From: Hyphobacterium sp. CCMP332
GTDB taxonomy: Bacteria; Pseudomonadota; Alphaproteobacteria; Caulobacterales; Maricaulaceae
Reading direction: 5' to 3'
DNA length: 64,000 bases
Assembly: GCF_014323565.1 (NCBI RefSeq)
Contig: NZ_CP058669.1
Location: forward strand, 895,501-959,500
Shown: positions 23,806 to 52,915 of the stretch, piece after piece
How the letters are laid out: each line of letters opens with the position of its first letter
How positions within the stretch are numbered: position 1 is the stretch's first letter
Made by a program: the position numbers and the translations under genes
Notes under the pieces: model-generated
Seen by the model: the letters and a program-made list of their open reading frames with translations, nothing else
The model's database searches: none
What the model was told of the DNA's origin: nothing

Positions 23806-25218
23806 ATGGCCGAGCAATTTGACCTCATCGTGATTGGCAGTGGTCCGGGCGGCTATGTGACCGCCATTCGTGCGGCCCAGCTGGGCCTGAAAGCCGCTAT
23901 TGTCGAACGTGATCAGCTGGGCGGTATCTGCCTCAACTGGGGCTGCATCCCGACCAAGGCGCTGCTGCGCACCTCCGAGATATATCACCTGATGCACCGC
24001 GCCGACGAGTTCGGCCTGTCGGCCAAGGATATCTCCTTTGACATCAAGAAGGTGGTCGAGCGCTCGCGGAAGGTTGCGGGACGCCTCTCCGGCGGTGTCG
24101 GTATGCTGATGAAAAAGAACAAGATCACCGTGATCGAAGGCACGGCGCGCCTGGAAAAGGGCAGCGCGGCACCGAAAGTCATCGTCACCGGCAAGGACAA
24201 GAAAGATACGTCCTACGAAGCCAAAAACGTCATCCTCGCCACCGGTGCTCGCGCCCGCACGGTGCCGCAGGCCGGCCTCGAGCGGGACGGCAAGCAGATC
24301 TGGACCTATCGCGAGGCCATGGTGCCGGAGGAGATGCCGAAATCTCTCCTCGTCATCGGATCGGGCGCGATCGGCATCGAGTTCGCCAGCTTCTACAAGA
24401 CCATGGGCGCGGATGTAACGGTCGTCGAGATGATGGACCGCGTCCTGCCAGTCGAGGATGATGAAATCTCCGCCTTTGCCGCCAAGCAGTTCAAGAAGCA
24501 GGGGATGAAGCTCATTCCCGGCGCGCAGGTCGAAAAGCTCGACAAGGGCGCAAAGTCGGTCAAGGCGTCGATCAAGACCAGCGACGGCAAGAGCCAGACC
24601 ATCGAAGTCGAGAAAGTCATCCTCGCCATCGGCATCACCGGTAATGTCGAAAATCTCGGCCTCGAGGATCTCGGTGTAAAAGTCGAGCGCGGCCATATCG
24701 TCATCGACGGTTATGGTGCGACCAATGTCAAAGGCCTCTACGCCATCGGTGATGTCGCCGGCCCGCCCTGGCTGGCTCACAAGGCCAGCCATGAAGGCAT
24801 TATCTGCGTCGAAAAAATCGCGGGCAAAAATCCGCACGCCATGGACACCTCCAACATACCCGGCTGCACCTATTGCCATCCGCAAATCGCCTCCGTCGGC
24901 CTGACCGAGGCCAAGGCGAAAGAGGCGGGGCATGATGTCAAAGTCGGCCGCTTCCCCTTTGTCGGCAATGGCAAGGCGATTGCGCTGGGCGAGGATCAGG
25001 GCCTTATCAAGACCGTGTTCGACGCCAAAACCGGTGAATTGCTGGGCGCGCACATGGTCGGGGCCGAAGTCACCGAACTCATACAGGGCTTCATGGTCGG
25101 CAAGGTGCTCGAGACCACCGAGCAGGAATTGATGCACGCCATCTTCCCGCACCCGACGCTCTCCGAGATGATGCATGAGAGCGTGCTCGATGCCTATGAC
25201 CGGGTCCTGCATATCTGA
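23806..25218 (+). CDS. lpdA: Dihydrolipoamide dehydrogenase (E3)
   Basis: FAD flavoprotein that reoxidises dihydrolipoamide of the PDH complex and passes electrons to NAD. It has 470 residues. It has the FAD-binding GSGPGGYV motif, redox disulfide GGICLNWGCIPTK, NAD-binding GSGAIGIEFASF, YAIGDVAG, and the active-site His-Glu pair in FPHPTLSE. A separate transcript is likely, since the dehalogenase-like gene diverges from it. AAGGAG lies upstream of the ATG. Confidence 0.98.
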   Translation: MAEQFDLIVIGSGPGGYVTAIRAAQLGLKAAIVERDQLGGICLNWGCIPTKALLRTSEIYHLMHRADEFGLSAKDISFDIKKVVERSRKVAGRLSGGVGMLMKKNKITVIEGTARLEKGSAAPKVIVTGKDKKDTSYEAKNVILATGARARTVPQAGLERDGKQIWTYREAMVPEEMPKSLLVIGSGAIGIEFASFYKTMGADVTVVEMMDRVLPVEDDEISAFAAKQFKKQGMKLIPGAQVEKLDKGAKSVKASIKTSDGKSQTIEVEKVILAIGITGNVENLGLEDLGVKVERGHIVIDGYGATNVKGLYAIGDVAGPPWLAHKASHEGIICVEKIAGKNPHAMDTSNIPGCTYCHPQIASVGLTEAKAKEAGHDVKVGRFPFVGNGKAIALGEDQGLIKTVFDAKTGELLGAHMVGAEVTELIQGFMVGKVLETTEQELMHAIFPHPTLSEMMHESVLDAYDRVLHI

Positions 25219-25239: not shown

Positions 25240-25590
25240 ATGGCCTACGAAACAAATATCTCCGCGGGCGATCTCACATTCGGTTCGTTATTCAGGATTT
25301 TCTTCTGGACGTCTCTGGCGTTCTGGCTGCTCTTCGGTGCCGTGCTCGCGGTGCTCGCGCTATTGGGCATGGATACGGTAAACTGGAACGGACAACCGGT
25401 TCACGGCGTACAGGGTTTGATCACGGGATCGCTGATCAGCGCAGTTATCGGGGCGATTGTATCGTCGATTGGCGGGCTGATATCGGCCCTGGTGGTCAAG
25501 CTTTTTGGTCGTTTTCTGCCGCTCTCGAATCTTCGTTCCACCCGGCAAAGCTTCGCAAATGTCTCGACCGTATTCAGCGATTCTGACTGA
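25240..25590 (+). CDS. Hypothetical membrane protein with two helices
   Basis: 116 residues with predicted transmembrane segments at about 18-42 (FRIFFWTSLAFWLLFGAVLA) and 63-90 (LITGSLISAVIGAIVSSIGG), and a polar C-terminal tail. I do not recognise a family. It starts 21 bases after lpd, so it may be in the same transcript, and it precedes the first exported solenoid gene by about 75 bases. Confidence 0.65.
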   Translation: MAYETNISAGDLTFGSLFRIFFWTSLAFWLLFGAVLAVLALLGMDTVNWNGQPVHGVQGLITGSLISAVIGAIVSSIGGLISALVVKLFGRFLPLSNLRSTRQSFANVSTVFSDSD

Positions 25591-25592
25591 CC

Positions 25593-25620
25593 TGCATCCA
25601 ATCGCGTTCTGACCTGCATC
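25593..25620 (+). promoter_or_regulatory. TGCATC direct repeat (22-base period) upstream of the solenoid lipoprotein gene
   Basis: TGCATC at 25593-25598 and 25615-25620, 22 bases apart, the second followed by TCT, 44 bases before the start codon. The pair matches the element at 13682-13709 in sequence, spacing and position, which suggests a shared regulator. Confidence 0.45.
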
Positions 25621-25664
25621 TCTTCAGCAAAGGCCCATGGCGGGCCGGTACAGGGAGACAGGTG

Positions 25665-26333
25665 ATGAAGGCAATTCTGATGATGACGGCAGCGGCCACC
25701 GCGTTGGCGGGTTGCAGTTATTCCAGCCATGGTCCTGCTGAAAACCGGTCCTTTGACCGGGCCGGTCTGGTGGCCGCCGGCGATATCGATGCCACAGGCA
25801 GCGCCGAATATGCGGGCATGTTTGTCGATGCGGGCGGCGACATTGGGAACAATCTGTCGCTCGCCGGGGCCAATGTCGTCTCCGATGCGCGCGTGGGCGG
25901 CAATCTGAACATTGAAGGTGCCCAGATACGCTTTACCGGGAGCGTGGCGGGAGACACCGAGATAGCCGGTGCAACCATGTATCTGAATGGCCGTTTCGGC
26001 GGCCGGATGGAGGTGATGGGTGCACGGGCCACGATTGATGGCGAAGTGCTGGGCGAACTGGAAGCCCTGGGCGCGCGCTTCAATCTCGAGGGCCGGTTTA
26101 CATCGCCCATATATGTCGTCGGCGGTGGCCGCGAAGGCCGCAATGGCCGTGTCGTTATTTCAGGTGTGCTGGAGCAGGGCGGTTATATCTGTGCCAGCCA
26201 GGTCGATATTCACCGAAATGCACGGATTACCGGGCCGCTCACCATCATCGCGCACGACCGCCCGGACTGGACGGGCAGCTATGACTTCGAGCCGCTGAAC
26301 GGGCGTGATTGCGAACGCATTTCCCGCGGCTGA
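25665..26333 (+). CDS. Exported bactofilin-like beta-solenoid lipoprotein (solenoid protein 1)
   Basis: 222 residues from ATG 25665 (an adjacent GTG at 25662 is also possible). A lipoprotein signal ends in ATALAGCS, so Cys is lipidated. The middle (about residues 40-135) consists of 17-residue rungs such as EGAQIRFTGSVAGDTEI and AGATMYLNGRFGGRMEV, the spacing of a right-handed beta-helix like that of bactofilins. Cytoplasmic bactofilins lack signal peptides, so this is an exported relative. The C-terminal cap (GYICASQV ... GPLTI ... NGRDC) with two cysteines is shared with the proteins at 26420 and 29169. Role inferred as envelope scaffold; not established. Confidence 0.75.
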   Translation: MKAILMMTAAATALAGCSYSSHGPAENRSFDRAGLVAAGDIDATGSAEYAGMFVDAGGDIGNNLSLAGANVVSDARVGGNLNIEGAQIRFTGSVAGDTEIAGATMYLNGRFGGRMEVMGARATIDGEVLGELEALGARFNLEGRFTSPIYVVGGGREGRNGRVVISGVLEQGGYICASQVDIHRNARITGPLTIIAHDRPDWTGSYDFEPLNGRDCERISRG

Positions 26334-26419
26334 GGTAAATGCTGGTTGCACCCATCACCAAAAACAACAAGATTGCCCATTGGAAGGGGCTCTCTTTTTA
26401 ATCCCAGAGGGAGCTTGAA

Positions 26420-27160
26420 ATGCATAAATCAATCTATCTGTTGGCCGCATCTGCGGCCGTTCTCGCTGCATCTCCGGCGCTGGCGCAGAGCCAGAACGTC
26501 TCCATGTCCGGTATCACGGTGGACTATTCCGGCGATGTTTCCGGCGATGGCGACTTTTCCGGCGCGACCGTGGACGTCACGGGCTCATTCGGCGGCGATC
26601 TGGAAGTTTCGGGTGCGGCTGTCGAGGTCAATGCAGAAATCGGCGATGATCTGGAAATCAGCGGCGGCGCGGTCGATATTCGTGGCTCTGTGGGCGGCAA
26701 TGCAGAAATCAGCGGCGGTGCGGTTGATATCAATCTCACCGTGACGGGCCGCAGCGATATTTCCGGCGGGGCCATTGATGTCTATTCCGCATCGGTCTTT
26801 ACCGGTGATGTGGAGATAGCGGTCGGGGCCATGGATTTTGCCGGTCACGCCATGTCCGGCCTGTCTGTCCGTTTCGGCGACATGGAATTTTCCGGACGCG
26901 CCGACGAGGCGGTCGATTTTGAAGGCAATAACCGGGAAGGCATTTTCCGCCGCCGCGATCGCAGCGAAATCGAGATTTCCGGCATTCTGAATGCCGGCGG
27001 TACGATCTGCGCCCACGAAGTCCGCTTCCGAGACGGTGCCGAGGTTAATGGACCGCTGACCATCCATGCCGATGAAGAGCCCGACTACGCAGCCGGGTTC
27101 GACGCGTCCAACATCAGCTTTGTCATGCGCGAGCGCGAGCGTTGCCGCGACGACGACTAG
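26420..27160 (+). CDS. Exported bactofilin-like beta-solenoid protein (solenoid protein 2)
   Basis: 246 residues with a cleavable signal peptide (about 1-22, ending SPALAQ), so probably soluble in the periplasm. Rungs of 17 residues repeat from about 45 to 150, for example SGAAVEVNAEIGDDLEI and SGGAVDIRGSVGGNAEI. The C-terminal cap has GTICAHEV, GPLTIHADEEPDY and a final Cys in RERC, matching the cap of solenoid proteins 1 and 3. The Shine-Dalgarno sequence GAGGGAG lies before the ATG. Its TAG stop shares a CTAG with the stop of the convergent synthetase gene. Confidence 0.75.
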   Translation: MHKSIYLLAASAAVLAASPALAQSQNVSMSGITVDYSGDVSGDGDFSGATVDVTGSFGGDLEVSGAAVEVNAEIGDDLEISGGAVDIRGSVGGNAEISGGAVDINLTVTGRSDISGGAIDVYSASVFTGDVEIAVGAMDFAGHAMSGLSVRFGDMEFSGRADEAVDFEGNNREGIFRRRDRSEIEISGILNAGGTICAHEVRFRDGAEVNGPLTIHADEEPDYAAGFDASNISFVMRERERCRDDD

Positions 27161-28920
27161 TCGCCGCCTTTGGCAAGTTTCTCGACGGCAACATAGTTGA
27201 TCTTGCCAGTGCCCAGGACGGGGATCTCGGAGACCGGGATCACCCGTTTTGGAATCGATAGCTCTGCAATGCCGTGACTGCGGGCAAAGGCGACCATATC
27301 GCTACGCTCAGCGTTGGCGTATTCGGTCACGATTACGACCTGTTCGCCTTTTCGGGGGTCGGGCAGGGTGACCGCAGCATGCAGACAATCCGGCCAGAGT
27401 GACGTGGCGATATTTTCAACGACCGCCAGTGACACCATTTCTCCGCCGATCTTGGCAAAGCGCTTCTGGCGTCCACGGATCTGGACACAATCCTCTTCAT
27501 CAAAGCTGACAATGTCGCCGGTATCATGCCAGCCATCCTTTGGCGGATGAATCACGCCAGGCTGGTCCGCAAAAATATAGCCTTGCATCACATTCGGGCC
27601 CTTCACATGAAGGCGTCCACCTTCCTCGATTCCCTCAACCGGCTCCAGCCGGGCCGACATGCCGGGAATCATCCGTCCCACCGAGCCGGGCTTGTTTCTC
27701 TCGGGCTGATTGACGGCAATAACGGGCGAGGCCTCGGTGGCCCCATATCCTTCGAGGATCATCAGATCGAATTCGCGCCGGACCATTGTGCGCGTTTCGT
27801 CCTTTACGCGCTCGGCCCCGCAAAGAACAAAGCGAAGGCTGTCAAAATCACCTTTTTCCGCCACACGGGCATACTGGTTCAGGAAGGTGTCGGTCGCAAA
27901 AAGCACCGTCGCTCTGGTTTTACGAACCCGCTCCATAATGGTCTTGCCCTGCAAGGGGCTGGGATGCAGGACGGCCGGAATACCCACAAGCAGGGGCAAT
28001 AGCAGTCCGCCGGTCAGGCCGAAACTGTGAAATGTCGGCAACGAGTTGAAGACGATGTCGGTGGGGTAAATATCGACATGCGCACGCGCCTGTTCGACAT
28101 TGGCCACCAGGTTCTGATGGCTCAACGCCACGCCTTTCGGATCGCCCTCCGTGCCGGAAGTAAAGAGGATAACGGCCGTATCATCCGGACTGACACGGGT
28201 GGCGACCAGATCAGGGAAAACGGGTCCCAGAAGCGCACGCACCTTGTCACCCAGCCCGATCGTCTCGCGAACGTCCTCCAGGTAGATCATCTCGTGATCT
28301 TCGGCGAGATGGCGTTCCAGTTCTTCCAGTGCGCCCAGTTCAATGAATTTGTGCGCCGTTACAATTTTCGTCGCCTGAGCCGCGCGGCAGGCCGCTTTGA
28401 TCGCCTTTGGCCCCGCCGTGAAGTTCAGCATGGCCGGAATGCGGCCATAGGCGTTCAGGGCAAAGAAGGCGATGCCGGCACCGGCGCCGGTCGGCAGGAG
28501 AACGGCGACTTTTTCGCCTTTTTCTGTTAGCCGCGAAAGGGCCGAACCCAACCCGAACGATGCCCGCAGAATTTCGTTGTAATCAAATTTGCGCCCGTCA
28601 GCGTCGATGATCGCAACCGACTTTCCGCCGACTTTCGCCTTGGCTCTCATCATCGCCTGCAGCACAGAGCGGCGGGCGCGCGAAAGCTTGAAGGGGGCAC
28701 CCTCAAGCACCGGCCAGGACGATGTGTCGACCTCCGCGTCCTCATCACTGTCGGGGTTTGTCGGCGCTGTACTATCCGGAGCTATGCCGGTGGAAGTGAG
28801 ATCGGCAGCATCGGCCCCGGTTTCCGTGACGGCATCAAGCGCGTCTGCAGCCGGAATATCAGACTCACGATTGTTATGATCAATCGCTGTATTTCCGTCC
28901 GCGGGTTTCCCGTCGGTCAT
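27157..28920 (-). CDS. AMP-binding acyl-CoA/acyl-ACP synthetase-like protein
   Basis: 587 residues. ANL-superfamily adenylating enzyme with P-loop LFTSGTEGDPKGVALSH, ATP motif YGATEASP, DTGDIV and the C-terminal lysine motif GTGKINY. The sequence resembles the synthetase half of Aas (2-acylglycerophosphoethanolamine acyltransferase/acyl-ACP synthetase), without the N-terminal PlsC domain. Instead it carries about 70 residues of acidic, low-complexity sequence; the ATG at 28920 has GGAG at good spacing, so this tail appears real. It lies within the cluster of exported solenoid genes on the opposite strand. Fatty-acid substrate inferred. Confidence 0.85.
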   Translation of the reverse strand: MTDGKPADGNTAIDHNNRESDIPAADALDAVTETGADAADLTSTGIAPDSTAPTNPDSDEDAEVDTSSWPVLEGAPFKLSRARRSVLQAMMRAKAKVGGKSVAIIDADGRKFDYNEILRASFGLGSALSRLTEKGEKVAVLLPTGAGAGIAFFALNAYGRIPAMLNFTAGPKAIKAACRAAQATKIVTAHKFIELGALEELERHLAEDHEMIYLEDVRETIGLGDKVRALLGPVFPDLVATRVSPDDTAVILFTSGTEGDPKGVALSHQNLVANVEQARAHVDIYPTDIVFNSLPTFHSFGLTGGLLLPLLVGIPAVLHPSPLQGKTIMERVRKTRATVLFATDTFLNQYARVAEKGDFDSLRFVLCGAERVKDETRTMVRREFDLMILEGYGATEASPVIAVNQPERNKPGSVGRMIPGMSARLEPVEGIEEGGRLHVKGPNVMQGYIFADQPGVIHPPKDGWHDTGDIVSFDEEDCVQIRGRQKRFAKIGGEMVSLAVVENIATSLWPDCLHAAVTLPDPRKGEQVVIVTEYANAERSDMVAFARSHGIAELSIPKRVIPVSEIPVLGTGKINYVAVEKLAKGGD

Positions 28921-29077
28921 TATATTCTCCCCGTGTCACGCGTTGGCGCGCTTGTCATATCGTTGACGCGGACGTTAGGGGCACAATGCGTTTCTGAAAA
29001 GCCCGAAATTCCGTTCACTTGCCGCATTGTCAGCTGTTGAAGTGTCAAAGATTTATCGATTAACGAAAAATCGCTTT

Positions 29078-29096
29078 CATATCGAATTTCGATATG
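29078..29096. promoter_or_regulatory. Perfect 19-base palindrome upstream of solenoid gene 3
   Basis: CATATCGAA-T-TTCGATATG: two perfect 9-base arms around one central base, in the AT-richer 248-base gap between the divergent synthetase gene and solenoid gene 3, 72 bases before the latter's start. Size and symmetry fit a dimeric repressor operator; the regulator is not in the window. Confidence 0.5.
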
Positions 29097-29168
29097 CTAA
29101 GAGAATTCCATCGCTGGGGAGCGTGACGGGTCAAACAGTTCGGCCCTTCGAGTCTGGAGTTTTCGGGC

Positions 29169-30047
29169 ATGAGAATTTTTCTTGCCGTGAGCGTGTCTTC
29201 TGGCGCTCTGATCATGGCAGGCTGCAGCAATAGCGCGGCCGCATCGATTCACGTGGATAGTGATCATCACGATCGTTCCAATGGCGTGCACCAGTTCGAT
29301 CAGGATGGTGATGTCAGCCTGTTGGGGAGTGACATGACCATTCGCGGCCGCATTGGCGGCGGGCTCTCGGTTGTCGGCTCCGATCTGGATGTCTCGGCGG
29401 ATATCGGCGAGGGCATGTCGCTCGTCGGGTCAGACATCTCATTTGACGGTAGTGTCGGACGGGATGCCAGTATCGCGGGCAGCGATGTCGAGTGGTTCGG
29501 TTCGGCCGGTGGAGATGTCGATATTGCCGGCAGCGACGTGGAATGGAGCGGCTCGGCGGTTGGCAATCTGTCGATTGCCGGAAGTGATGTCGAGGTGGAT
29601 GGCCGTATTGGCGGTGACCTGGATGTTGCAGGCAGCGATATTGATATCGCGACAGACAGCCGCATTGCCGGCGATCTTTCGATTGCGGGCAGCGACCTGA
29701 ATGTCTACGGCGAAATGGATGGCGACGCCGATCTTGTTGGCATCTCGATTGATATAGAGGGCCGGATCGAGGGCCGTCTAATTGCAATTGCTTATTCCCG
29801 CAGGGGGTGGAGCTGGTCGTCCGATAATAGTCATCAGCGTGTTCGCATTAATGGCGCGATTGGTGCCGGCAGTGCTGTTTGCGCCCGTCGGGTGGCAATT
29901 GGCCGGGACGCGGTCTTGGCCAATGGCCTGACTGTCTTCGCAGACGAAGCCCCGGTTTTCGAGAATGGTGCGCCGCAAACGGGCGTCACTTATGCAGAAA
30001 TCAATGGTCGTGACTGCGACGATCTGTTGGAACCCTATAACCGCTAA
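29169..30047 (+). CDS. Exported bactofilin-like beta-solenoid lipoprotein (solenoid protein 3)
   Basis: 292 residues with a lipoprotein signal (SGALIMAGCS). About nine rungs of 17 residues follow, each beginning [LVA]GSD, for example AGSDVEWSGSAVGNLSI and AGSDVEVDGRIGGDLDV; the underlying DNA is repetitive too. The C-terminal cap (SAVCARRV, GLTVFADEAP, NGRDC) carries the same two cysteines as solenoid proteins 1 and 2. The regular rungs predict a long, narrow beta-helix anchored by lipid to a membrane. It is followed 45 bases later by solenoid gene 4. Confidence 0.75.
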   Translation: MRIFLAVSVSSGALIMAGCSNSAAASIHVDSDHHDRSNGVHQFDQDGDVSLLGSDMTIRGRIGGGLSVVGSDLDVSADIGEGMSLVGSDISFDGSVGRDASIAGSDVEWFGSAGGDVDIAGSDVEWSGSAVGNLSIAGSDVEVDGRIGGDLDVAGSDIDIATDSRIAGDLSIAGSDLNVYGEMDGDADLVGISIDIEGRIEGRLIAIAYSRRGWSWSSDNSHQRVRINGAIGAGSAVCARRVAIGRDAVLANGLTVFADEAPVFENGAPQTGVTYAEINGRDCDDLLEPYNR

Positions 30048-30092
30048 TCCCTATTCGCACCCAAACGTAACGCCGGGGGGCGAACGGAGGTA

Positions 30093-31355
30093 ATGATGTT
30101 CATTCGATCACTTTTTCTTGCAGCAGGGCTGGCTGCATCACTTACGTCCGGCGCGATGGCGCAGACATTTGGCGGCCATGTCGAATTCCAGAACATAGAT
30201 CGCGACGGCGACCTCAAGGTCATCGCCGGCTCGGCTGAAATTTCCGGCCGGATCGGTGAGGATTTTGCAGTCTACGGTGGCAGCATCGAGGTTGATGTTG
30301 AAGTCGGTGGCGATATCCGGATTGCTGGCGGCAGTGTGACGGCAGCGGGACGTGCGGCCGGAGACGGCGAGTTCGCAGGTGGATCCGTTGAGGTCGATAT
30401 GGATATCGGCGGCGACGCAGAGTTTGCGGCTGGCTATGTGCGTTATGAAGGCGTGATCGAAGGCAATCTGGATACGGCTGTCGGTGCCCTTGAATTGCTG
30501 GAATCGTCCACCGTTAATGGATCGGCGGACCTGACGGGCCAGAACATCACGCTCAGAGGCCGAATTCTCGGCAATCTGGATGCGCTCGCCGAAGAGGTCA
30601 TTATATCCGGACGCATTGACGGAAATATTGATATCGAAGCCGAGCATCTGGTCATTGAACCGGGTGCCATCATCAACGGTCGGATTGAATATTCCGGTCC
30701 AAATCCGGCAGAGATTTCGCCAGATGCCGTCATGGCAAACGACATTGAATACACTTTCCGCGAGCTCGATTTCGATTGGGACGGTGACCAGTTTGATGGC
30801 GTCAATATCGATTTTGATATTCTTCCGGGCGGCGAGTTTTTCGCCGTCGCCGGCGTCGGGTTTGCGCTTCTGCTCGGGCTGATTGCGCTTTTGTTGATGC
30901 CGCGTGGCGTTGCGCGCCTGAGCCGTAAATTCCGCCGCCAGCCACTGCTTGCACCATTGCTGGGCTTGCTGCTTCTCCCGATGGGATGGCTCATGCTGAT
31001 GATGGCCGTCACGGTTCTGCTCACTGTCACGGTCGTGGGCATCGTGCTGATCCCGTTCTGGTGGGTCTTTGGTCTGTTCGTGATCATTCTGGCCTACCCG
31101 CTGGGTGCGATCGCTGTGGGCGATCTGATCCTTGCGCGCACCGGACGGAATGATCCTGGCCTTGGCCTCAGATTGCTGGGTATGTTCGTCATACTCATTC
31201 TGGCGTCGGCGCTCTGGATTGTACCGCCACTGGCCGTCATTTCCGGGGTGATCCTGTCCTGGATCGGTCTGGGTTCCTGGGTTCTGGCCGCGTTTGGCAG
31301 CAAGGATGAGCCAGTCGCGCCGGTCCGGCCTTCTCCTGAAGCTGATGCTGTGTGA
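30093..31355 (+). CDS. Membrane-anchored bactofilin-like beta-solenoid protein (solenoid protein 4)
   Basis: 420 residues. After a signal peptide (about 1-24, SGAMAQT) comes a solenoid of 17-residue rungs (about 40-205; YGGSIEVDVEVGGDIRI, AGGSVEVDMDIGGDAEF). An acidic linker follows, then a C-terminal membrane domain with roughly five or six helices (about 248-405) and a Pro-rich tail. Similar C-terminal domains occur in exported polymer-forming proteins. The solenoid should face the periplasm and the tail the cytoplasm. It lacks the two-cysteine cap. The second ATG (30096) has better spacing from GGAGG than the first. Confidence 0.75.
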   Translation: MMFIRSLFLAAGLAASLTSGAMAQTFGGHVEFQNIDRDGDLKVIAGSAEISGRIGEDFAVYGGSIEVDVEVGGDIRIAGGSVTAAGRAAGDGEFAGGSVEVDMDIGGDAEFAAGYVRYEGVIEGNLDTAVGALELLESSTVNGSADLTGQNITLRGRILGNLDALAEEVIISGRIDGNIDIEAEHLVIEPGAIINGRIEYSGPNPAEISPDAVMANDIEYTFRELDFDWDGDQFDGVNIDFDILPGGEFFAVAGVGFALLLGLIALLLMPRGVARLSRKFRRQPLLAPLLGLLLLPMGWLMLMMAVTVLLTVTVVGIVLIPFWWVFGLFVIILAYPLGAIAVGDLILARTGRNDPGLGLRLLGMFVILILASALWIVPPLAVISGVILSWIGLGSWVLAAFGSKDEPVAPVRPSPEADAV

Positions 31356-31412: not shown

Positions 31413-32375
31413 ATGGCGAACCTTATTGATACTCTCGCGGGCGAACAGAAGCCCCGCCACCCCGAAAAGCAGCATCGCCCGGATAATCCGGTCCTGCGCA
31501 AGCCGGACTGGATTCGCGTGAAAGCGCCCGTGGGCGGCGACTACGCCGAAACCCGGAAAATCGTCAAAGACAACAACCTGATCACCGTCTGCGAGGAAGC
31601 CGGCTGTCCGAATATCGGGGAATGCTGGACGCAAAAACACGCCACGTTCATGATCCTCGGCGATACCTGCACCCGGGCTTGCGCGTTCTGCAATGTGAAG
31701 ACCGGATTGCCGCAAGCCGTCGACCACGATGAAGCCAACCGTATCGGCGAAGCCGTCGTGAAGATGGGGCTCAAGCACGTCGTCATCACCTCGGTGGACC
31801 GCGATGACCTCGAGGATGGCGGTGCGCAGCACTTTGTTGATGTCATCAACGCCATTCGCAAGGCTTCGCCCGGGACGACAATCGAGATCCTGACACCGGA
31901 CTTCCTCCGCAAGGATGGCGCTATCGACACGGTGATTGATGCGCAGCCGGACGTTTTTAATCATAATCTGGAAACCGTGCCGCGGCTCTATCTCTCGATA
32001 CGCCCGGGCGCGCGCTATTATCACTCCTTGCGGCTGCTGGAGCGCGTCAAGGAACGTGATCCGGCACAATTCACCAAGTCCGGCCTGATGGTGGGCCTGG
32101 GTGAAAGCAAGGAAGAGGTGATGCAGGTGATGGACGATATGCGGTCCGCCGGCATCGATTTCCTCACCATCGGCCAGTATCTGCAACCAACGCGAAAACA
32201 CGCGTCGGTTCAGCGCTTTGTGGAGCCGGCCGAATTCAAAGCCTATGAAACGATTGCCCGCGCCAAAGGCTTCCTGATGGTGTCGGCGACGCCGTTGACG
32301 CGGTCCAGCTATCACGCCGGAGGCGATTTCGTGCGCCTTCGGGCCGCGCGGGATGCTGCGCTTGCGGGCAGATGA
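31413..32375 (+). CDS. lipA: Lipoyl synthase
   Basis: Radical SAM enzyme that inserts two sulfurs into octanoyl groups on lipoyl domains such as those of PdhB and PdhC. It has 320 residues. The auxiliary-cluster motif is [12 protein letters not shown] and the radical-SAM CxxxCxxC motif is [32 protein letters not shown] and GLMVGLGES also match the family. The stop overlaps the next start (ATGA). Confidence 0.98.
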
Positions 32376-50955: not shown

Positions 50956-51043
50956 GGAGGGGTGGCAGAGTGGTCGATTGCGGCGGTCTTGAAAACCGTT
51001 GAGCCGCGAGGTTCCGGGGGTTCGAATCCCTCCCCCTCCGCCA
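50956..51043 (+). tRNA. tRNA-Ser(TGA)
   Basis: 88 bases with CCA encoded. Acceptor GGAGGGG pairs with CCCCTCC. The anticodon loop CTTGAAA has anticodon TGA at 50990-50992, the long variable arm is that of a serine tRNA, and the T loop is GGTTCGAATCC. The bases flanking it (ATCATCT before, AGATGAT after) can extend the acceptor stem in the precursor. Confidence 0.95.
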
Positions 51044-51497
51044 GATGATTTAAAATAAGTTATAAGATATAATGAGTTATAGGAAAGTGGGTTTGTTTTC
51101 TTTCGTTTTACCCACCAATACACCCACCAATTCTAATTGACGCCGTTCCAAATTAATTCTCAGAAGTAAGCGATGGTTGGTGGTACCGTCGGGCAGTGGC
51201 TACAAAAACAGGGTAAAAATGGCGCTAAAGCATTGTTTCTGCGTTAGGCGGTTGCTTGCGATATATTCTTACTTTCTACCTCGGTACTTACTGCAGTATC
51301 CCTTCACTGGAGCATCTTCCAGACATGGGCCGGTCGTAAAAGTTGCTCGCCCGGTTGCATTAAGCGGATAATTTTCACCAACTTCCGGGGACAATAGTGA
51401 CATAAGCTCAAAGATTGAGATGTCGTCTAAGTTCCAAAAATCATCCAAACTCAATTTTAAGATCAATCAAATTGAATTTGTTCCCCGTCAGCACCTA
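51044..51497 (+). other. AT-richer gene-free stretch between tRNA-Ser and the IS element
   Basis: 454 bases, visibly lower in GC than the surroundings, with no convincing gene. It contains the direct repeat ACCCACCAATAC/ACCCACCAATTC near 51110-51131, just downstream of the tRNA. A 24-codon fragment (51172-51246) starts MVGGTVGQWLQK. Its place next to the 3' end of a tRNA suggests the remains of an integrated element whose integrase is gone; no att duplicate was found in the window. Confidence 0.4.
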
Positions 51498-51557
51498 TGG
51501 CACAGAATTGGGGTTGTGATTTAAGGAGGATTTGGTTCTCGTCGTAATGACGAAGGA

Positions 51558-51938
51558 ATGAAGATGAGACCCAAATCTACAAAGTCCAAAAAGCCTGCAG
51601 ATCGTGTGGTAAAGGACATCCGCCGGGCAACGCGGCGACACTTCTCTGCAGAAGACAAGATCAGGATCGTGCTGGAAGGTCTGCGTGGTGACGACAGCGT
51701 TGCCGAGCTATGCCGCAAGGAAGGCATTGCGCAGAGCCTGTATTACACATGGTCGAAGGAGTTCATGGAGGCTGGCAAGCGCCGGCTTGCCGGTGACACG
51801 GCACGTGCCGCCACCAGCGATGAGGTCAAGGACCTGCGCCATCAGGCGCGTGATCTCAAAGAATGCGTGGCTGATCTGACGCTGGAGAACCGTCTACTCA
51901 AAAAAAGCATTCTCGCGGATGGGGGAGACGGCGCATGA
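51558..51938 (+). CDS. IS3-like transposase OrfA (helix-turn-helix)
   Basis: 126 residues. A basic N-terminus and helix-turn-helix (FSAEDKIRIVLEGLRGDDSV ... LCRKEGIAQSLYYTWSKEF) are followed by a leucine-zipper-like helix (about 95-120, ADLTLENRLLKKSI). It binds the IS ends. It overlaps OrfB by four bases (ATGA); an A7G slippery run near its end lies in the correct phase for a -1 shift into OrfB. Confidence 0.88.
   Translation: MKMRPKSTKSKKPADRVVKDIRRATRRHFSAEDKIRIVLEGLRGDDSVAELCRKEGIAQSLYYTWSKEFMEAGKRRLAGDTARAATSDEVKDLRHQARDLKECVADLTLENRLLKKSILADGGDGA
51900..51907 (+). promoter_or_regulatory. Slippery A7G sequence for -1 frameshifting in the IS
   Basis: Seven A then G, read as CTC AAA AAA AGC in OrfA. 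The -1 frame from here is open and continues without a stop into OrfB from 51935. This is the usual way IS3-family elements make the OrfAB fusion transposase. Confidence 0.6.
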
Positions 51939-52915
51939 GATATCCTGCAGCTGAGAAGCTCGAGATCATCAGGCTCGTCGAGCAGTCCCACTTGCCTGCC
52001 AAGGTCACGCTTGAGAGGCTGAGTATAGCGCGGCGAACTTTCTATCGCTGGTATGACCGGTATCTGGAAGGTGGGCCCGAAGCGTTGGCGGACCGGCCAT
52101 CGACGCCGAGCAGGGTGTGGAACCGCATCCCCGCCGAGGTGCATGACCAGATTATCGAACTGGCGTTGGAGCAGACCGAGCTGAGCCCGCGCGAACTGGC
52201 CGTGCGGTTCACTGATGAGACGCGTTACTTCGTGTCTGAGGCCACGGTCTACCGCTTGCTGAAGGCCCATGATCTGATTACCAGCCCGGCCTATGTGGTG
52301 ATCAAGGCTGCCGATAGCTTCCATACCCAGACGACCCGGGTGAACGAGATGTGGCAGACAGACTTTACCTACTTCAAGATCATCGGATGGGGTTGGATGT
52401 ATCTGTCGACCGTACTCGACGATTACTCGCGCTACATCATCGCCTGGAAGCTGTGTTCGACCATGCGCGCCGAGGACGTCACCGACACGCTGGACATGGC
52501 GCTCGCTGCTTCAGGCTGCGATCATGCCAACGTGGTTCACAAGCCGCGCCTGCTCAGCGACAACGGCCCGAGCTACATCGCTGGTGAGCTGGCAGACTAT
52601 ATCGAGGCCCGGCGCATGAGCCATGTTCGCGGCGCACCCTTCCATCCCCAGACGCAAGGCAAGATCGAGCGTTGGCACCAGACCTTGAAGAACCGCATTC
52701 TACTGGAAAACTACTTCCTGCCCGGCGACCTCGAAGCCCAGATCGAAGCGTTCGTCGAACACTACAATCATCAACGCTACCACGAGAGCCTGAACAATGT
52801 GACACCTGCCGACGCCTACTTCGGCAGGGCTCCTGCCATCATCAAACAACGTGAAAGGATCAAGCGACAGACACTTGAACATCGGCGCTTGCAACACTGC
52901 AAGATCGCCGCCTAA
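51935..52915 (+). CDS. IS3-like transposase OrfB (DDE integrase core)
   Basis: 326 residues. An N-terminal HTH_21-like region (PAAEKLEIIRLVEQSHLPA, TFYRWYDRYLEGG) precedes the rve catalytic core. The first Asp is in EMWQTDFTYF, the second in LLSDNGPSYIA, and the Glu in TQGKIERWHQTLKNR. It catalyses cutting and joining of the element. It may be made alone from its ATG or as a fusion with OrfA. Confidence 0.9.
   Translation: MRYPAAEKLEIIRLVEQSHLPAKVTLERLSIARRTFYRWYDRYLEGGPEALADRPSTPSRVWNRIPAEVHDQIIELALEQTELSPRELAVRFTDETRYFVSEATVYRLLKAHDLITSPAYVVIKAADSFHTQTTRVNEMWQTDFTYFKIIGWGWMYLSTVLDDYSRYIIAWKLCSTMRAEDVTDTLDMALAASGCDHANVVHKPRLLSDNGPSYIAGELADYIEARRMSHVRGAPFHPQTQGKIERWHQTLKNRILLENYFLPGDLEAQIEAFVEHYNHQRYHESLNNVTPADAYFGRAPAIIKQRERIKRQTLEHRRLQHCKIAA

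Follow-up and report, generated by a model that had tools for sequence, protein, structure and literature searches.

Bactofilin-related proteins with export signals and a cysteine-capped or membrane-anchored C-terminal end in a Hyphobacterium gene cluster

Classical bactofilins (Pfam PF04519), such as Caulobacter BacA and the Thermus bactofilin, are cytoplasmic proteins with a 17-residue-period beta-solenoid and, in 10/10 of the sequences aligned here, an N-terminal MF. In one account (PMC12364344), classical filaments are described as making a C-to-C contact, and the H. pylori bactofilin as having a different hydrophobic residue, leucine, at the polymerization interface. Bactofilins with an N-terminal transmembrane helix make up about 3.2% of surveyed entries, according to a second paper (PMC12448750). 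Outside the bactofilins, the description of the periskeletal polymers CrvA and CrvB of Vibrio, which lie at the inner cell curve (PMC8938487), presents a shape-giving periplasmic scaffold, an idea that we apply below to a different set of proteins by likeness of description only. Among the open-licence papers listed in our bactofilin searches, none dealt with an exported bactofilin set.

Here we describe four genes, P1–P4, found in a 64,000-nucleotide window of Hyphobacterium sp. CCMP332 DNA. Their products have the 17-residue period in common with classical bactofilins but lack the N-terminal MF and carry export signals instead; their solenoids are also longer, and the C-terminal end runs on into a cap or a membrane domain. 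As in Proteus CcmA, a bactofilin of the N-terminal-transmembrane type, the bactofilin domain of P4 is membrane-anchored. The anchor of CcmA is N-terminal, however, whereas that of P4 is C-terminal and follows a signal peptide, so the P4 solenoid is predicted to lie outside the cytoplasm.

Four solenoid-repeat genes and their neighbors

All four reading frames are open at the coordinates given here and lie on the forward strand. P1 (25665–26333) encodes a 222-residue lipoprotein-type capped beta-solenoid with cap cysteines Cys176 and Cys216; ATG at 25665 is its best start, and a GTG at 25662 is also present. P2 (26420–27160) encodes a cleavable-type signal peptide and a capped beta-solenoid, 246 residues in all (cap Cys197 and Cys242), and P3 (29169–30047) a lipoprotein-type capped beta-solenoid of 292 residues with eight GSD turns (cap Cys238 and Cys283). 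P4 (30093–31355; 419 or 420 residues, ATG at 30093 or 30096) combines a signal peptide, a beta-solenoid, and a C-terminal multi-helix membrane domain. Between P2 and P3, on the reverse strand, lies a gene for an AMP-binding, acyl-ACP-ligase-like protein (27157–28920), a syntenic companion outside the solenoid set that was found in 9/14 inspected genomes. Two forward-strand genes anchor the synteny: upstream an lpdA-type gene (23806–25218), presumably for dihydrolipoyl dehydrogenase and present in 14/14 of these genomes, and downstream a lipA-type gene (31413–32375), which we take from its sequence family to encode lipoyl synthase and which fell inside the compared stretch in 10/14. In another family, the gene that follows P4 shares 70% identity with this lipA-type gene, and P4-type genes of one other family occupy the same pdh/AMP-ligase/P4/lipA neighborhood. 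None of the neighbor genes points directly to cell shape or the cell wall.

Period 17 gave the top score among periods 5–39 in each of the four proteins. Identity at this offset was 0.20 in P1, 0.27 in P2, 0.26 in P3, and 0.24 in the P4 solenoid, with shuffle means of 0.08–0.09 and z scores of 6.4, 10.1, 9.9, and 8.2, respectively (2000 shuffles). AlphaFold2 models, which cover P2 and P4, gave a confident beta-solenoid for P2 (pLDDT 89.6, pTM 0.82) and for the exported, N-terminal half of P4; the solenoids of P1 and P3 rest on the sequence repeats. The 17-residue period, together with the signal sequences described below, bears out the original prediction of four solenoid-repeat proteins with export signals, and the structure check proposed with it likewise returned predicted beta-solenoids for P2 and the exported part of P4.

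In Foldseek comparisons of these predicted models, the low-rmsd matches included HxuA, RsaA, and HMW1 (~3 Å), with GlmU and LpxD near 10 Å; we take the first three to be right-handed helices and the last two to be left-handed. No PDB entry matched either model at E ≤ 0.001, and the P2 model had no viral match. Bactofilin chains appeared only as weak Foldseek matches (2n3d, E 6.7; 6rib, E 2.4), and their absence among the 50 matches listed in the P2 and P4 fold comparisons excludes nothing. Secretion domains of adhesins, returned in these comparisons along with further secreted beta-helices, would fit lipidated solenoids displayed on the cell surface, for adhesion or as a coat. Such matches are common for any beta-helix, however, the constant partner in the set, P4, is a predicted inner-membrane protein, and no gene for a secretion partner stood out among the neighbors; we regard a surface role as very doubtful.

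Export signals and predicted location

Export signals, called by eye and with a simple score, place candidate sites at TALAG↓C in P1 (lipobox at residue 17), LIMAG↓C in P3 (lipobox at residue 19), ALA↓Q in P2, and AMA↓Q in P4. In 15/15 aligned P1 and P3 sequences a cysteine occurs at residue 17–21, never with Asp at +2, and some of the boxes are non-standard (for example MLLPA↓C and AGTTG↓C). The +2 residue rule for outer-membrane lipoproteins comes from E. coli. Because 2/11 P2 sequences also have a cysteine near the signal peptide, the split between soluble and lipidated members is not absolute. For the window's own proteins, the two lipoboxes, one cleavable signal, and one C-terminal membrane domain noted at the outset agree with the sequences and the P4 model: P1 and P3 are candidates for lipid tethering, P2 is a candidate soluble protein, and P4 is the multi-helix membrane member.

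The C-terminal part of P4 is hydrophobic and is helical in the AlphaFold2 model. Net charge after the first membrane segment is positive in 13/13 P4 sequences, and before it negative in 11/13. The preceding stretch is net positive in two sequences (L041 and L046), and a hydropathy scan of five P4 sequences gave 4–6 membrane segments; for these reasons P4 topology is uncertain. A conserved basic segment after the first membrane helix could suit an envelope sensor, in which the periplasmic solenoid of P4 would bind a wall or membrane ligand and signal through the membrane domain, with the capped proteins as ligand-side partners. The same idea draws on a related nucleotide-cyclase-type gene directly upstream of P4-type genes at 4/19 other loci, in two genera, where the called frames overlap. 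Yet no cyclase gene stood beside the cluster itself when six window proteins were family-scanned and the neighbors of relatives were compared with window genes, and across 13 P4 proteins the membrane domain matched no Pfam family consistently (one member gave a weak acyltransferase match). A sensor is, in our estimate, quite unlikely.

Kinship with bactofilin and the C-terminal cap

The label "bactofilin-like", which the original prediction applied to all four proteins, holds for P4, which passed the curated Pfam bactofilin cut-off (E 4.2e-9; 37 bits vs 27.9). It does not carry over directly to P1, which scored below the cut-off (18.6 bits, E 0.0022), or to P2 and P3, which had no match to this family at E ≤ 1. 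Among orthologs, 12/13 P4 proteins matched at E ≤ 1 and 18/26 capped proteins at E ≤ 0.1 (best 7e-8). The P4 profile aligned with ten classical bactofilins over 101 columns and the capped-protein profile with classical bactofilins over 28 columns only; against P4, the capped profile aligned over 221 columns (E 8e-39), extending through the cap. On these alignments, P1–P3 connect to bactofilin mainly through P4. Profile searches against solved structures found bactofilin weakly, both with the capped alignment (6ria at E 0.016, ranked below a phage tail fiber with E 0.0053) and with the P4 alignment (2n3d, E 0.0011). Solenoid repeats can arise by convergence, and a mere convergence of proteins unrelated to bactofilin on a 17-residue beta-helix would sit well with the Pfam results for P2 and P3 and with the 28-column span; against it stand the P4 score, the matches of the P4 orthologs, and the 101- and 221-column alignments, which make an independent origin most improbable.

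A C-terminal cap with two cysteines is common to P1–P3, occurring in 26/26 aligned capped proteins and in 29/29 of those listed. The 13 P4 sequences have no cysteine at the position of the first, and beyond the second their chain goes on as the membrane domain. Since the cap aligns with the last rungs of P4 in a joint alignment, and its second cysteine falls where P4 enters the membrane domain, P1–P3 look like P4 copies with a cysteine pair in place of the anchor. In an unrooted tree, P1, P2, and P3 formed three separate groups (supports 99/96, 87/86, and 99/98).

These C-terminal ends bear on whether P1–P4 polymerize end to end into a periplasmic skeleton, a counterpart of the cytoplasmic filaments of classical bactofilins. 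Solenoid homology to bactofilin via P4 speaks for such filaments. So does hydrophobic Ile193, present in 13/13 P4 proteins at the position of the invariant classical phenylalanine, which we read from the alignment as the polymerization residue; the P4 chain continues beyond it. However, the classical contact is C-to-C, as cited above, whereas P4 runs into its membrane domain and P1–P3 run on into further strands and a cysteine-bearing end. With the cap and the membrane domain situated past the C-terminal end through which classical bactofilins polymerize, P1–P4 do not readily suggest an ordinary bactofilin filament, and we consider exported filaments unlikely.

Distribution across genomes and a possible periplasmic scaffold

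P4 occurs in at least 37 of 385 sampled Alphaproteobacteria, the window's own genome included, with the best four candidates scored per genome. We inspected 19 other P4 loci drawn from the 36 other P4-type genomes. Their proteins have the same solenoid and C-terminal membrane domain as P4, but no second solenoid gene was present at 19/19 loci (stretches of 10–14 kb; that of L160 begins 2.2 kb before P4), whereas the Hyphobacterium locus has P1–P3. Given this breadth and its solitary occurrence at the other loci, P4 looks like the older core of the set. A twentieth inspected region (L171) contains an ordinary bactofilin-like gene.

Within the family, P4 was present in 53/137 genomes and capped genes in 44/137, the latter always with P4 (44/44). 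The capped partners are dispensable, because the number of paralogs per genome varies from one to three and 9/53 P4 genomes show none. Across the 385 genomes, matches that reached the end of the capped profile occurred only in the window's own genome, among at most six best candidates per genome, so rare capped partners may escape this class-wide search. Conservation of the cluster, a check set out with the original prediction, was found in part: the locus is kept in related genomes, and what stays constant in the 14 inspected is P4 together with one or more capped paralogs, but a fixed four-gene unit is ruled out, all four genes occurring together in only 4/14.

A shared periplasmic structure of P1–P4, as first proposed, is plausible, and our best guess at its nature is a periplasmic scaffold or tether. 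In full, and with slightly less than even confidence, we propose a family-restricted exported set related to bactofilin, with P4 as core and cysteine-capped derivatives, that would form a finite, static scaffold or tether and not an open-ended filament. The proposal builds on the repeats, export signals, cap cysteines, P4 homology, and co-occurrence, all present in the sequences, and on the predicted P2 and P4 folds; from these we infer the cell location, the direction of the change from P4 to P1–P3, a disulfide, the pairing, and the tether function. The P4 solenoid would stand in the periplasm on its C-terminal inner-membrane domain. P1–P3 would descend from a P4-like ancestor that lost the membrane domain and gained a cysteine pair, closing the C-terminal end. 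P1 and P3 would be lipidated at the N terminus, probably in the outer membrane, and P2 would be soluble; as short rigid rods, all three would most likely pair with P4, and with one another through their free N-terminal faces.

A more specific arrangement, to which we give little credence, is a bridge of stacked beta-solenoids spanning the periplasm, in which the N-terminal face of P4 would point outward, P2 would extend the stack, P1 and P3 would hold the outer membrane by their lipid anchors, and the cysteine-closed C-terminal ends would fix its length. If true, the bridge would be an envelope ruler made of bactofilin-like parts. More broadly, a conserved set with export signals, leading from an anchored founder to cysteine-capped partners, would show the same rod reused outside the cytoplasm, and the cluster would offer a tractable system for envelope building and spacing in these marine alphaproteobacteria. 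Finally, dN/dS of the cluster genes against Hyphobacterium indicum was 0.11–0.18, a rough estimate at dS 0.9–1.7, which indicates that the solenoid genes are under purifying selection.

Four solenoid genes with export-type signals

As originally predicted, the window encodes four plus-strand reading frames with export-type signals and solenoid repeats. P1 (25665-26333) and P3 (29169-30047) carry lipoboxes, P2 (26420-27160) and P4 (30093-31355) have cleavable-type signals, and self-identity of the four proteins at an offset of 17 residues is 6 to 10 standard deviations above that of shuffled sequences. The surrounding genome is a single 2.69-Mb contig. In comparisons with G003, a member of the same genus taken to be Hyphobacterium indicum, P2 is 82% identical to its match and dN/dS is 0.11-0.18 across P1-P4, with values of 0.03 for lipA and 0.11 for the gene after lipA. 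In P3, a GSD motif occurs eight times between residues 53 and 174, spaced by 17 residues six times and by 19 once; this regular Ser-Asp ladder could bind cations or wall polymers.

AlphaFold2 models support the predicted fold in the two proteins modeled. For P2 (26-row alignment; mean pLDDT 89.6, pTM 0.82), strands begin at residues 27, 44, 61, 78, 95, and 112, an exact spacing of 17. For P4 (mean pLDDT 79.4, pTM 0.53), the solenoid runs to approximately residue 221, with blocks from 31 to 220 at pLDDT 83-96, and is followed by lower-confidence helices within residues 246-400. Both models resemble general β-helices in structure comparisons, with low-rmsd matches that include an antifreeze β-helix, HxuA, HMW1, and RsaA, and with GlmU/LpxD rows near an rmsd of 10; a surface coat is one rival reading of such proteins. 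Bactofilin chains appear among the Foldseek rows as weak matches only, and thus the fold search alone does not identify the family.

Several neighboring features were also observed. The terminal part of the AMP-binding ligase gene (27157-28920, minus strand) overlaps that of P2. Its best NCBIfam model, acyl-ACP--phospholipid O-acyltransferase, is covered over the second half alone (positions 621-1131 of 1140). In E. coli, Aas reuses the lyso-lipid produced when lipoproteins are acylated, and by analogy a link between this ligase and the adjoining lipoproteins is conceivable. Between lpdA and P1, a 116-residue frame (25240-25590) encodes a small membrane protein with no significant match in family-model scans; the corresponding loci of 13 further genomes yielded no similar frame of at least 90 residues. 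An IS3-type transposase sequence at ~51480-52500, 82-84% identical to sphingomonad plasmid copies among the five matches listed, lies ~0.4 kb from a tRNA-Ser gene (50956-51043).

Distribution of P4 and the capped genes

The four-gene set was only partly conserved in relatives. Gene-by-gene inspection of 14 genomes, including the window's, found P4 with at least one capped gene (P1-P3) throughout, but the complete set in only four (the window, G003, G006, and G005, the last over two contigs). The others have P2, P3, and P4 (G001, G004, G016, G019, G021), P1, P3, and P4 (G015), P2 and P4 (G002, G011), P3 and P4 (G020), or P1, P2, and P4 with a P3 remnant (G007). In G007 (L035:5927-7185), P3 is reduced to a 114-residue frame before P4, which is itself cut by the contig end; the remnant reflects either a deletion or an assembly gap. 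The lpdA gene is present in all 14 genomes, the AMP-binding ligase gene in nine, and lipA within the stretch inspected in ten (it is ~3 kb away in G004).

Survey counts and synteny suggest that P4 is old at this locus and that the capped genes were added within the window's family. First, among 137 family genomes, P4 occurs in 53, a count that leaves out 11 genomes whose sole matches to its profile are short ordinary-bactofilin-type frames. Capped genes occur in 44, all of which also have P4, and nine genomes have P4 without a capped gene (G461, G484, G487, G488, G489, G490, G492, G493, G508). Second, at least 37 of 385 class genomes, the window's among them, carry a P4-type match that extends to model position 300 or further, and the window's own genome is the single one found to match the capped profile through to its end; both figures are lower bounds, as few candidates were scored per genome. 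Third, a survey of 398 phylum genomes gave nine that matched at E ≤ 1e-8, one outside the class (G547) and one through an ordinary-bactofilin-type frame alone (G729). Finally, in G154, from another family, the genes flanking P4 are an AMP-ligase gene and lipA, 28% and 70% identical, respectively, to their counterparts in the window, with relative strands as in the window.

Relation to bactofilins and proposed origin of the capped proteins

Within the set, P4 alone passes the Pfam bactofilin cut-off. Among orthologs, bactofilin matches reached E ≤ 1 in 12 of 13 cases for P4 and E ≤ 0.1 in 18 of 26 cases for the capped proteins. Ten ordinary cytoplasmic-type bactofilins aligned with the P4 profile over 101 columns (E 2e-9), but with the capped profile over just 28; convergence is the rival account of such resemblance. 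The window's genome also encodes one ordinary bactofilin. Classical bactofilin filaments are built by alternating N-N and C-C contacts, according to two reports (PMC12448750, PMC12364344). Unlike classical bactofilins, P4 and P1-P3 have chains that extend beyond the corresponding C-terminal position. For this reason, we class the set as bactofilin-related proteins with export signals, treat P4 as a divergent member of the family, and make no claim of bactofilin filaments; filaments in the periplasm are a rival proposal. One of these reports gives ~3.2% of bactofilins as having N-terminal transmembrane helices; the terms 'signal peptide' and 'lipoprotein' do not occur in its main text (PMC12448750). 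Among the matches listed from the open-licence literature, we found no paper on exported bactofilin sets.

The C-terminal regions of P1, P2, and P3 share a cysteine pair that is conserved in every one of the 26 aligned sequences and is found in all 29 capped proteins tabulated, with a separation of 39-45 residues and the second cysteine no more than 10 residues from the C terminus. The invariance of the pair suggests a disulfide in the cap. Profile-profile alignment matches P1-P3 to P4 over 221 columns (E 8e-39) and extends through the cap region. In a joint alignment, 'IEAEHLVIEPGAIINGRIEY...DIEYTFRE' of P4 lies opposite 'ICAHEVRFRDGAEVNGPLTI...NISFVMRE' of P2, and the last cap cysteine sits where P4 continues into its membrane domain. 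On the simplest reading of these alignments, P1-P3 would be copies of P4 with the cysteine pair in place of the membrane domain and an insert before the pair; copying is taken to run from P4 because P4 is more widely spread. P1, P2, and P3 each form a group of their own in an unrooted tree (supports 99/96, 87/86, and 99/98). All three groups span more than one genus, and one P3 row (L044) is on a very long branch.

Predicted topology and a putative periplasmic assembly

Charge around the first membrane stretch of P4 was compared in 13 rows. The segment after this stretch has a net positive charge in every row, the one before it has a net negative charge in 11 (L041 and L046, both +2, are the exceptions), and the charge of the later loop is never below zero. 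This charge pattern and the signal peptide therefore predict a periplasmic solenoid. A crude hydropathy scan of five rows gave four to six membrane segments. Our best guess is that short rods would join into a finite, static periplasmic assembly, in which P4 would be the inner-membrane base and the capped proteins would serve as soluble and lipid-tethered partners.

An envelope sensor is the rival for which gene neighborhoods provide a lead, as related cyclase-type genes lie immediately upstream of P4-type genes at four of 19 other loci (L152, L153, L154, L156; two genera), with frames that overlap the P4-type gene as called. L152 and L156 were grouped with these genes by similarity; in a Pfam scan of L153, L154, and L156, the last gave no match at 1e-5, and L153 and L154 matched the adenylate/guanylate-cyclase family.
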